A DNA stretch of 64,000 nucleotides, taken from NCBI RefSeq assembly GCF_035083965.1, contig NC_089726.1, positions 9,429,501 through 9,493,500 on the forward strand, written 5' to 3'. The number at the start of each line of letters is the position of its first letter. Position 1 is the stretch's first letter. A program made the position numbers and the translations under genes. Shown piece after piece: positions 1,413-58,231 of the stretch. The stretch comes from Branchiostoma lanceolatum (Eukaryota; Chordata; Leptocardii; Amphioxiformes; Branchiostomatidae). A model generated the notes under the pieces. The model saw only the letters and a program-made list of their open reading frames with translations. It had not been told where the DNA came from and searched no databases.

Positions 1413-4400
1413 ATGGCTCTACACCACTGGCTGGCGGTTGGGTTCCTGCTTGTGGTGATGGCTGGTAAGTGGGTTTGGATGAAAACCAGGATTTCTGTCA
1501 AACTAGACGTGGCGAATAGTGTCGCCACGCCTCGCTAAATCTAGTAATCGCTAGTTATTCCCAGCTAGTGAATATATTTGTGCGTAGCTGTTATTTGTGC
1601 AAAACTGTGCATAGCAAACAAACCGAAGTTGGATACCCTGATACCTTTTAAAGTAACAAAAATAGAGACTAGACTTTGCTGAAAAAGGCGTAGCTCCCAA
1701 ACCAGTATATAAATTGACAACTTAACTGGAATGATTAGCCTATCAATTGCAAAACTAAGTTGATATCCGCGAATTATCTATTCCCATTTAATGCTATGGT
1801 GAGACTTACACATTTTGACATAAGTATCAATGGAATCTAATTGAATCTAATACTAGTAATGACAATAATCCTGTTGCAAAAAAGGGTGGAAACAGACACG
1901 CAGTTACCTTGAGGTTACCACAAGGCCCCTCTTAATTGGTTTACTGACCTTTAAAAGACGATAGAACTACATGTAAGTACAGGCTTTGGGTCTGGCCTCA
2001 ATCGCAGACCCCGTCAGACGTGTATTCGTTCAACAAATGAGTACGAGCAGTTTTCTGATAACTGCCGAGTTCTGATTGCTTAGCTTGTAGATGTCTGTTT
2101 AATAGCCGTCCTCCAGAGCCCCCCCCCCCAAATCAAAACACGGACAAGGTATTTAATCAGACACCATATGTGGTTAAAGGAAAGATGCTAGATGGGGTCT
2201 ATGAAGAAGGCTACTCTTGGACTGTGTAAGTCGAGGCATGCAATACAGTGTACTCTTTTGGAACGCATTGCTACAGTCTGAGTAACTTAACAGCCACCTA
2301 CTTAGATATTTCACACCACCGAATGTGGTATGTTTGCTGGCTTGTGAACATTCTACTTCATTGCCTGATAAGGGTGGGATGTGACCTTTGTAAGTGTAGT
2401 CAGGTATACGTACGTAGTAGTCTGTCGCAAGCCATAAAAAGTTTGTACCTTATTTTCACGTATCCAATCTTTAAACATACCTTAAAGCATAGATACAGAT
2501 AGAGATTATACATAAGTACGGTATGAATAAACGCAATCTTTACGTATACTTTAAGGTATACTGAAACACAATGTACAATACACAGTATACTGTGCAGGAA
2601 AGTGTGTATGATTTTAGCGTATGTTCCCGCCGCCCCAGCTACCGTCGCTGGCGAGAGTTCCACAGAGAACCTGCGGAAGATTCTGGTGGACCATTTCTCG
2701 ACCAACCGCAATCACCACAGCAGCCGGATCGGGAAACAGTCTGCACTGCAGTTCACCTACGACACCTTCATAGAGCATGACCTGCAGGTCTTCACTCATA
2801 CGTTCGACACGGATAATACAAAGGTAAAGTCCCGCAGACACCCCGATAGGAGGGCTGCTCATGTATTTACCGAAATAAATGTATGCAAAATACCCCTTGA
2901 AATACACGAAATATACATTAACATTGGTGAAATATAGTGTGATAGAGGGGATAAAGGAGTTTCTAGTTTTTTTATGGCCGTTTTCAATCTGGTCCATTTG
3001 TTTTTCAGTGGGTGTGGGAGAAAGCTAAGGTGGAAAGGTCACAGTGCCGTATAGCCTCAAAAAGGAGTGTGCGTACTATGCGGGGCTGACAACCATACCC
3101 ATACCAAAGGCCATTAGCTGTCATCGAGGCATCAGACTTGAGCCCCTATCTCACTGGACCCGCGACACGTTGGCGACCTAGCTGCGTCCTAAGTTGGATT
3201 TGTGTTACCTATGACTTTATAGTGGGAATATCATGCCAAACGTACACTATAAAGACCACAAAACACACAAAGGGTAAAAAGAATGAAATTCGTTAAGCGC
3301 GCTGTCAAATCGCCCGGTCGCAGCGAAGTCGCCAACGTGCCGCGGGTCCAATGAGATAGGGGCGATAAGGTCGATTCTCAACCAAAGGAACGTAATATAC
3401 GAGTATGTATCCACAAAAGCGTCAATTCATTGATTGCTTCTATCACTTTGAGTACAAAGCATCCACTAAGCGCAAAAACCATATCTCCCATAGGTCAAGG
3501 GAAAGAACCTTATCGGAGTGTGGCCGGGCACAAGGGCGGCTACTCACCTGGACCGCCCGATCCTGATCGCTGCCCACTACGACTCGTACCTGGACACCCC
3601 GGGGGTGTGCGCGGACGGGTCGGGCATGGCCGCCCTGCTGGAGGCTATCCGTGTCATCACGGCCCGGCCATGCATACAGTACAATTCCATCATCTTCGCA
3701 GCGTTCGACTTTGAGGAAAAAGATACGAGTAAGTCATGAATTTCACCCCTTTCTTTTACTCACATGGACTGCTATATACAATCAACTAGTTCTTAGCAAG
3801 AGAAATGTTAACTTAAGTATGACTGCTTTTTTCAGAAATAAAATCACAATAAAACAACACAATCAATAACATGCCATTGCAGCTACAAAAGCGCTGAATT
3901 AAGGCATGATTTACTCGTACAAAACTTCTTATGAACAAACAAGCAACACGAGATCAGTTAATTGGACGATATCGTGGACACGTCTTTTAAATTTCGTCCT
4001 TTCCTTTCAACTAAAAAACTAATCACACTAATTCTAATACCTTTTGAGCTTTCTTCATGATGAAAATATGCTTTCGCTACCAACACAGATGAGCTTTTGT
4101 AACAATGAAACGGTATCATATGATACCTCAACTTGTGTCACATAAAGTTTGCTGATTTTGCTGTATCTATGATAATCATTTTGTAGCGACGCCAGGATCC
4201 GCTTGCCAAAACTTCGGCTGTGGCAGCCGTGCGTACGTCAGTGACGTTCTGGTGAAGTATCTGAAGTTCGTGGGCATCAGCTCGGCACAGTTCCAGGGCG
4301 CCTTCATCCTCGACTCTATCCTCAACTTCAACGGCTCCGTGGACAGCCAGAAACTCCCGCCCGGCGACTTTCAAAACGTGAGAACGTCATAGCACCATTC

Positions 4401-57100: not shown

Positions 57101-58231
57101 GTTGCTGGGCTATTTTGGGGTCTGGCCGGAGGCCGAATCGGTTTACTTCAGACTTAGATTGAACGCGAGACCCGGCAACAAATAGACGTCGTGAGCTAAT
57201 TGTGCGAGCACCGGGCCGTACCCGACAGTCCACTGGGACAAATTTGTGGCTTCGGGGCCCGGCCGGGATCCCGGACTACACCCCCAAGTAGTCCGGGCAC
57301 CGGTGAAATTGGGACCAAAGCATTAGTGGGCATTAATAGTCCAACATGATGAATATTATTTTCATACAGTTTGTTTCTGTTTTGGTATATGTGTTTATGG
57401 GTATCAACGTAACAATCCCTTATCTCCTCCATATTCCTAGTCGCGCACTTTGAATGCTTGTTGACATGGCCGGGTCTACACATGCCTAGTGATTTTAACC
57501 TTTCCAGTAACCCTTTTTAAGAAAAATGTCAGGGTGCGTTTCTCCTCGCGTAACGTTATATTCAATCATTTTTGATGCTTTGTCCAAAGGTAAACAAACT
57601 ACTGGCGGTACCGGTGGCCTCGGCACGGGGGTGGTTGTTGGGCTGTTGGTTGGAGTCATCCTCACGCTCCTTGTCGGTGCTGCTGTTTGGTTCTTCCGTA
57701 AGAGGTGAGTCCATAACCCCTTCGTGTCAATTTTAAAGCTATTTATTCTATTTTTTGTTTTATTCATGTATTGAATTTTCAGACAGCTGGGCACACGTGG
57801 CCCATTCAATTTTGATAAATGGATTTTCAATGGGACCCAGACTACAAGTCAGTTTAACAAAGAAAATAAACTTACGACAAAATTGTAACATAAATAACAG
57901 AGGATTGTTGAGACATAAGTAACACAAGTAACCGAAGGTATACGTATCCAAAAACATATGCAAGTACTCGAAAATCGAAGGTCGCCTCGTGCCGTCCTTT
58001 GTCAAAACGACAGCCTTTTAAGGTCTCTCAAATTTTCAACCAATTTTCTCATAGATAGCTAGTGACCATGAGTGCCAAAGCATGTAGCATGAAATATTCT
58101 CTTTGTATTACAACGACGAGTAAGATATAACGTCTATAATCTCTTCATGTTCCTAAAGACTGTGTATATCTTACAGACGGCCATCAGGACGAGGCGGGCC
58201 GTCCTTCCAACCTCTGCAAGTGTCTACCTAA
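45179..58231 (+). CDS. Gene F/G: two tandem M28-like units, type I membrane protein without FN2 modules (1025 aa)
   Basis: Exons: 45179-45224, 45367-45557, 46504-46741, 47558-47745, 47994-48149, 48252-48402, 48727-48873, 49179-49352, 49549-49634, 49810-49915, 51021-51211, 51738-51981, 52579-52769, 53499-53654, 54001-54148, 54952-55089, 55222-55383, 56121-56206, 56824-56932, 57590-57704, 58177-58231. Signal peptide MALKFIVLCAIFTIG; M28 unit 1 with beta domain (16-494); M28 unit 2 with beta domain (495-969); TM (983-1005); tail RRPSGRGGPSFQPLQVST. Apart from the missing FN2 exons the architecture, exon lengths and phases equal those of D/E, so the two are recent paralogues. Intron 1 is only 142 bases and holds no FN2 remnant. 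Both units lack catalytic residues. Expected on the cell surface as a binding protein; this is inferred. Confidence 0.87.
45367..49915 (+). other. F/G M28-like unit 1
   Basis: Nine exons, residues 16-494. His107 (TAHYDS), Asp119 (QDNGSG), Glu153 and Asp201 (IILDS) are kept. The ligand Glu is Leu154 (LDFEL) and the last His is lost (PNRGVDD, Arg334). Like D/E unit 1 it keeps the general-base Glu but not the adjacent ligand. Confidence 0.8.
46942..47074. mobile_element. Short MITE-like inverted repeat in F/G intron 3
   Basis: The left arm 46942-46973 (ATGACCCACCCCTAGGTGTA...) and right arm 47039-47074 are complementary over about 32 bases with a few mismatches (GGTGTATATGGTGTCATA is matched exactly). 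Total 133 bp; no coding capacity. Confidence 0.7.
49930..50720. repeat. Insertion with a duplicated exon end in F/G intron 10
   Basis: Contains repeated GGCTGGTGTTCGG-type units, a short hairpin (GGGAGTAAGTCAGCA at 50132-50146 and its complement at 50180-50194) and, near 50690-50716, TAGCCAGTGACTCCACAGGT, which copies the 3' end of exon 10 with its donor. The matching D/E intron is only 144 bases. Confidence 0.6.
51303..51640. mobile_element. MITE-like GC-rich element in F/G intron 11
   Basis: Ends ATGCTTTGGTCCAAATT and, inverted, AATTGGAACCGAAGCAT. GC-rich interior. An inverted relative is at about 57070-57335, sharing GTGCTCGCAC, ATTAGCTCACG and TCTATTTGTT. Confidence 0.65.
53320..53432. 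repeat. (AT)n-(GA)n microsatellite just upstream of F/G exon 14
   Basis: An AT run (about 53320-53371) passes directly into a GA run (about 53371-53432), 67 bases before the exon at 53499. Confidence 0.95.
54629..54652. repeat. (AT)n microsatellite in F/G intron 15
   Basis: About twelve AT units between exons 15 and 16. Confidence 0.9.
57065..57335. mobile_element. Inverted relative of the 51303-51640 element in F/G intron 19
   Basis: Read in reverse complement it follows the order of the 51.3-kb copy: GCTTTGGTCCCAATTTCAC, GGGCCCCGAAGCCAC, GGTGCTCGCACAATTAGCTC, CTATTTGTTGCCGGGTC. Confidence 0.6.

Follow-up and report, generated by a model that had tools for sequence, protein, structure and literature searches.

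A tandem array of predicted M28-fold membrane proteins with broken zinc sites in the lancelet Branchiostoma lanceolatum

Introduction

What might a cluster of peptidase-like membrane proteins do if none of its members keeps a complete catalytic metal site? The question is raised by a stretch of 64,000 nucleotides from the lancelet Branchiostoma lanceolatum (NCBI RefSeq assembly GCF_035083965.1, contig NC_089726.1, positions 9,429,501 to 9,493,500 of the forward strand; hereafter the window), which holds six units of the M28 peptidase fold in four genes, with one unit each in genes B and C and two each in D/E and F/G. We consider it probable, at roughly 0.62 and judging from the sequences, that these genes encode type I membrane pseudo-peptidases in tandem array, acting as binding or docking proteins.

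Results

Membership in M28 and relatives

An earlier interpretation, made from the letters of the window alone and here called the sequence-only reading, had described six complete M28 units, and this was borne out. All six spliced units matched the Pfam family PF04389 (Peptidase_M28), and the six second exons each did so at 47.1–54.8 bits compared to a cut-off of 21.3 (E-values 3e-12 to 1.3e-14), scores so far over the cut-off that the match is not due to chance. At E-values up to 1, the only other Pfam family found was BAR, in one unit (0.32). LapA from NCBIfam also matched all six units (best E-value 8.8e-6), the first unit scoring 13 bits against a cut-off of 600, and no claim of membership is made.

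When compared to the PDB, the top match was the Streptomyces griseus aminopeptidase 1cp7 (E-value 1.8e-8, profile positions 22–119), and the other 18 matches at E-values up to 0.001 were mostly bacterial or fungal-type leucine aminopeptidases. Up to an E-value of 10, 26 matches were obtained, including a cyclotransferase (0.0037), a Peptidase M28 and nicalin (0.0085); no chain named PSMA, transferrin receptor or nicastrin was among them.

A tblastn search with the M28 part of gene B as sole query returned eight plasmid records (seven Streptomyces, one Janthinobacterium), and six of the Streptomyces records span 72–80% of the query at 24.6–26.9% identity. Among genome contigs, a profile of all six units found no relative in 97 stretches, and an alignment of exon 2 from five units (without D/E-2) gave 15 loci from 229 stretches. 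Two scans of viral contigs (53 and 205 stretches) found nothing, nor did Rfam at gathering scores in the window. A prior description of such a family was not found among the matches listed in a literature search by titles and abstract openings, with subscription papers and databases lying outside it.

The zinc sites of the six units

The metal sites were numbered 1 to 5 after AAP (1amp): His97, Asp117, the second residue of the Glu151-Glu152 pair, Asp179 and His256. Glu151 we take to be the base, as the sequence-only reading did. In the 1amp/1f2o table of PMC7522609, the ligands of Zn1 are sites 2, 3 and 5 (Asp117, Glu152, His256) and those of Zn2 are sites 1, 2 and 4 (His97, Asp117, Asp179).

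The spliced units were aligned with 10 of 18 relatives. The base is present together with a full set of ligands, allowing Asp or Glu at site 4, in nine of these ten and in none of the six units, and the tenth, L012, was only missing the aligned last His; of the eight relatives outside the alignment, in which only these two features were read, six have the Glu-Glu pair and all have a last-His-like block. The sequence-only reading had held that no unit has a full zinc site, and an alignment placing all five ligands in any unit was indeed not obtained. Its listed ligand states were all found again in the alignment, except that the Arg it gave at the last site of the first F/G unit is offset. In gene B, site 2 is lost (His, Ala, Glu-Glu, Asp, His in site order), and in gene C site 5 (His, Asp, Glu-Glu, Asp, Arg). 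The first units of the two-unit loci, D/E-1 and F/G-1, have lost site 3 to Ile and Leu, respectively (His, Asp, Glu-Ile or Glu-Leu, Asp, offset), and their motifs PNHGVDD and PNRGVDD place a His (D/E-1) or an Arg (F/G-1) one residue after the ligand column of site 5, with Asn in the column itself. The second units have lost most: F/G-2 (His, Asp, Gln-Cys, Asp, absent) has Gln for the base, Cys at site 3 and no ligand at site 5, and D/E-2 (Asn, Asp, Gln-Cys, Asp, absent) has in addition lost site 1 (Asn).

Common to all six units is that Zn1 is broken. None has the set of an active di-zinc M28 enzyme (His, Asp, Glu, Asp or Glu, and His, with a catalytic Glu), and sites 2, 3 and 5, which are intact in single-zinc M28 enzymes (glutaminyl cyclase), are broken in all six. 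The Zn2 triad is whole in four units (C, D/E-1, F/G-1, F/G-2) and the base Glu is kept in four (B, C, D/E-1, F/G-1). Over the columns that at least nine of the ten relatives conserve, 17 of 30 metal or base cells are intact in the units compared to 83 of 96 other cells, the cells being non-independent as the units are related; site 4, Asp or Glu in the relatives, falls below this conservation cut, and its inclusion brings the metal and base cells to 23 of 36. As read from the alignment, the loss is concentrated at the active site.

Descent of the units

An unrooted codon tree placed the two first units (D/E-1, F/G-1) together as one pair and the two second units (D/E-2, F/G-2) as another, B and C falling outside both. 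First and second units are separated by a synonymous divergence (dS) of 1.6–2.0, which makes the doubling within the chain old, and D/E and F/G by a dS of 0.16–0.20, which makes their duplication young. The loss of Glu152 is common to both first-unit copies, and Gln-Cys together with a shorter loop at His256 to both second-unit copies. The statement that every unit had lost a different part of the zinc site was thus overstated: as these losses are shared, and on the assumption that no ligand was regained, the alignment suggests three inactivations rather than six. Catalysis would have been lost in three lineages, in B (Asp117 to Ala), in C (His256 to Arg) and in the ancestor of D/E and F/G (Glu152), with erosion afterwards; since the duplication, the copies have come to differ at His97 and in having Ile or Leu. 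We infer both the descent from an active enzyme and which ancestor was active.

The two first units are unevenly alike. With short flanks, D/E-1 and F/G-1 share 98% identity in exon 4, where no synonymous difference was found, and 95% in each of exons 5 and 6 (blocks 26369–30478 in D/E and 47983–48892 in F/G), compared to 71–82% in the other exons. The far greater likeness of exons 4–6 makes gene conversion between the two units likely. Between the two F/G units, positions 50680–50717 match the end of exon 9 at 79% over 38 bases, perhaps as the relic of an extra copy.

Selection and the C-terminal domain

None of the six spliced units contains a stop or a frameshift. A single ratio of non-synonymous to synonymous rates (dN/dS, omega) fitted to all six over 461 gap-free codons (GY+F3X4) was 0.313. 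The NG86 estimate was 0.68 for D/E-1 and F/G-1 (95% bootstrap limits 0.50–0.93) and 0.55 for D/E-2 and F/G-2 (0.38–0.81); for exons 2–6 alone, the values were 0.41 (0.21–0.81) and 0.58 (0.37–0.95), respectively. The units are under net purifying selection. With their open spliced frames, common phases and omega below 1, the genes do not look dead, as far as sequence can tell.

Single exons, with small counts, gave values near or above 1 in unit 1 (exon 2, 1.33; exon 7, 1.03; exon 8, 1.10) and in unit 2 (exon 3, 3.28, resting on one synonymous difference; exon 8, 1.25). Between the first units, the differences number about 37 (synonymous) and 105 (non-synonymous) in exon 1 and the C-terminal domain together and 21 and 28 in exons 2–6, so that amino-acid change is relatively richer in the former (Fisher p 0.03, rounded counts). 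The same contrast between the second units was flat (p 0.72).

Exons 7–9 of each unit encode the C-terminal domain, which is about 120 residues long and contains conserved glycines. No Pfam family was found for it, one of the six units matching SEF14_adhesin at 0.054, and the PDB gave no convincing relative (best E-value 0.11). It would therefore be an unclassified domain with respect to these two databases.

Gene models

The window has a guanine-cytosine content of 0.409, and its genes are spliced and animal-like. Homologous exons were located by tblastn within the window and their boundaries then read from the DNA, giving nine coding exons (e1–e9) per unit, with identical phases in all six. 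From B to F/G the models run from 1413 to 58231, the same limits that the sequence-only reading had drawn. That reading had also proposed membrane anchoring, and the genes were found to end in a transmembrane (TM) exon, present in A, B, C, D/E and F/G.

Gene A is represented by its last two exons on the plus strand, encoding the TM segment (148–250) and the cytoplasmic tail with its stop (505–565); the remainder would precede the window start. Both exons are like those of gene B, the TM part being 43% identical, and among the tails A resembles B and D/E resembles F/G.

Gene B (1413–9181, plus strand) is complete and encodes 559 residues comprising a signal, one M28 unit, a TM segment and a tail. 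Its exons lie at 1413–1464 (signal), 2618–2823 (e1), 3494–3728 (e2), 4187–4377 (e3), 5159–5311 (e4), 5528–5678 (e5), 6097–6249 (e6), 6561–6731 (e7), 7078–7196 (e8), 8056–8146 (e9), 8607–8709 (TM) and 9127–9181 (tail). A splice defect had been suspected in exons 2 and 5 of gene B and in exon 5 of D/E, and was rejected as each has a phase-1 GT donor.

Gene C (11618–17121, minus strand) has its exons at 16931–17121 (e1), 16116–16350 (e2), 14897–15108 (e3), 14584–14742 (e4), 14125–14275 (e5), 13608–13760 (e6), 13297–13467 (e7), 12898–12989 (e8), 12240–12354 (e9) and 11618–11717 (TM); no tail exon was found for it. An unproven candidate for its signal-peptide exon lies at 17469–17514 on the minus strand (MSKIILSALTIALVT, donor CAG/GTTAGA) and is the sole candidate on that strand in 17100–18500; under tighter donor requirements, scanning as far as 21500 yielded a further candidate at 19859.

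All exons of D/E are on the plus strand. Its first unit (24385–32075) comprises e1a 24385–24578, e2a 24994–25231, e3a 25685–25872, e4a 26381–26536, e5a 29876–30026, e6a 30313–30459, e7a 30788–30961, e8a 31697–31782 and e9a 31970–32075, and its second (32220–36309) e1b 32220–32410, e2b 32604–32847, e3b 33113–33300, e4b 33700–33855, e5b 34091–34238, e6b 34695–34832, e7b 34963–35130, e8b 35329–35414 and e9b 36204–36309. The gene end (36693–37102) consists of a TM exon (36693–36810) and a tail exon with stop (37048–37102). No signal exon was found in 22500–24390, and one distant candidate lies at 21417.

F/G, likewise on the plus strand, was assigned a signal-peptide exon at 45179–45224 (MALKFIVLCAIFTIG), picked from four candidates in 37000–45375 for its resemblance to the gene B signal, the other gene with an assigned signal exon, and for its closeness to e1a. 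The first unit (45367–49915) comprises e1a 45367–45557, e2a 46504–46741, e3a 47558–47745, e4a 47994–48149, e5a 48252–48402, e6a 48727–48873, e7a 49179–49352, e8a 49549–49634 and e9a 49810–49915, and the second (51021–56932) e1b 51021–51211, e2b 51738–51981, e3b 52579–52769, e4b 53499–53654, e5b 54001–54148, e6b 54952–55089, e7b 55222–55383, e8b 56121–56206 and e9b 56824–56932. The gene end (57590–58231) has its TM exon at 57590–57704 and the tail exon with stop at 58177–58231.

In both D/E and F/G, exon 9 of the first unit exits in phase 1 and exon 1 of the second is entered in phase 1, and a hydrophobicity scan found no TM segment between the units and one after them. D/E and F/G are therefore best read, from their predicted structure, as single genes, each encoding some 1,000 residues in which two consecutive units are followed by a single TM helix at the C-terminus. 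Two separate genes per locus are less likely, as D/E has no candidate signal exon between its units; F/G, with four such candidates (two start codons) that are not common to D/E, is less firmly settled.

A repeat roughly 500 bases long is dispersed through the window; it lies at 39301–39800, with copies 73–87% alike to this first one at 60581–61067, 43114–43483 and 20200–20530. The array is followed, at 59879–60130, by an exon belonging to a gene of the carboxylesterase family (PF00135, E-value 1.3e-16).

Discussion

The favoured explanation is that the array encodes surface receptors or docking proteins, whose ectodomains consist of one or two copies of the M28 fold together with the unclassified C-terminal domain. 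Their ancestor would have been an active di-zinc aminopeptidase, and the loss of ligands suggests that the present units are unable to hydrolyse peptides. The ectodomains would instead work by binding, with the former substrate cleft or the surfaces beside it holding a peptide or protein, and the short tail may couple them to trafficking or to a partner; one structural metal ion may sit in the four units with a complete Zn2 triad.

Several points weigh against this explanation. In PMC7522609, a modelling argument is made that GPAA1 works as an M28 enzyme with a single zinc, although at least three of its five sites are non-canonical. Given this case, the loss of canonical ligands does not prove inactivity, and a single-metal or structural-metal role is conceivable, foremost in the four units with the Zn2 triad and through the site 3 Cys of both second units, which could bind zinc. 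Gene B is without only one ligand, and site 4 is Asp in all six units. The constraint on the fold that the sequence-only reading had assumed, and for which it had proposed dN/dS, is present and yet weaker and patchier than supposed: in both pairs, the bootstrap interval spans 1 when either exon 1 or the C-terminal domain is taken by itself, and with pair values as high as 0.55–0.68 and several exons that approach or exceed 1, drift may be under way in some copies. For C and D/E, the signal exons are candidates only, and the tally of AG at 63 of 63 acceptors and GT at 61 of 61 donors in the 65 modelled exons is no independent test, because the splice sites were picked to fit.

That one or more units are still enzymes, using a single metal and substitute ligands such as the site 3 Cys or the offset His of D/E-1, as proposed for GPAA1 (PMC7522609), is consistent with the base Glu and the Zn2 triad each being kept in four of the six units. 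However, it is Zn1 that single-zinc M28 enzymes retain, and here it is broken throughout, whether through Ala, Arg, Ile or Leu or through the shortening of a loop, and the units with Cys also carry Gln in place of the base; we therefore regard residual catalysis as unlikely. The omega values of the two recent pairs, the single exons near or above 1, with their small counts, and the patchy identity of D/E-1 and F/G-1 (98%, 95% and 95% compared to 71–82%) would also fit an array in which post-enzyme copies drift to pseudogenes, with frames kept open by recency and gene conversion. Such decay we consider improbable, as no stop or frameshift has accumulated in six units despite the dS of 1.6–2.0 between first and second units, and the whole-unit omega and its bootstrap limits lie below 1 in both pairs, with 0.313 overall.

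Another reading accepts the pseudo-peptidases and makes them fast-evolving recognition receptors, in which duplication and conversion diversify the double-headed forms and so let them keep pace with a shifting ligand (of a microbe, a mate or self). The tandem array, the double heads and the excess of amino-acid change in exon 1 and the C-terminal domain of the first units speak for it. The second units do not repeat that excess, however, and the sole omega well above 1 depends on a single synonymous difference, which leaves rapid diversification an outside chance. Binding or docking by pseudo-peptidases is the reading that we prefer. Going further, we would suggest only tentatively, and with considerable doubt, that the array represents a new animal receptor family, in which the M28 fold is joined to a new C-terminal domain, often occurs twice in a chain and binds ligands instead of catalysing, with at least three independent Zn1 losses in one array and with duplication and gene conversion continuing to diversify the double-headed forms. 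If the lineages did break Zn1 at different residues while the fold persisted, they would offer a natural series for the passage from enzyme to binding protein, and the chain of two M28 units with an unclassified C-terminal domain is a testable architecture.

Comparison with known M28 proteins

The nearest enzymes are bacterial M28 aminopeptidases, as 1cp7 is the best PDB match. The alignment of the Streptomyces plasmid M28 peptidases L016–L018 extends along the M28 domain and takes in the SDH-W, LTDT and last-His blocks, but these proteins keep the base and all ligands whereas the units here are without Zn1, and they are single genes of 1008–1020 bases, too short for the extra C-terminal domain. 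Like the units, glutaminyl cyclases and GPAA1 have an M28 fold in which the metal sites are altered or a single metal is bound (PMC7522609), and a cyclotransferase chain was matched at 0.0037; in glutaminyl cyclases, however, the zinc is held by the set of sites that is broken in all six units.

The sequence-only reading had drawn a parallel to nicastrin and the transferrin receptor, which holds as a likeness of kind. Transferrin receptors are M28B non-enzymes and provide a precedent for the M28 fold in a non-enzymatic membrane role (PMC10794815). Neither they nor PSMA were named among the 26 PDB matches, Pfam found no second domain in the units, and the marks of M28B, an apical PA domain and a sequence match to PSMA or transferrin receptor, were not found in them. 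The anchor also differs, as the transferrin receptor is a type II membrane protein and the array proteins are anchored C-terminally. Nicastrin and nicalin are single-pass proteins with an M28-like ectodomain and a C-terminal anchor; nicastrin was not among the 26 matches, and nicalin matched weakly (0.0085). Nicastrin is not known to have tandem genes, double M28 units or an extra C-terminal domain. The known M28 pseudoenzymes, transferrin receptors among them, are isolated, old cases, and the array described here sets beside them six units in which Zn1 is broken.

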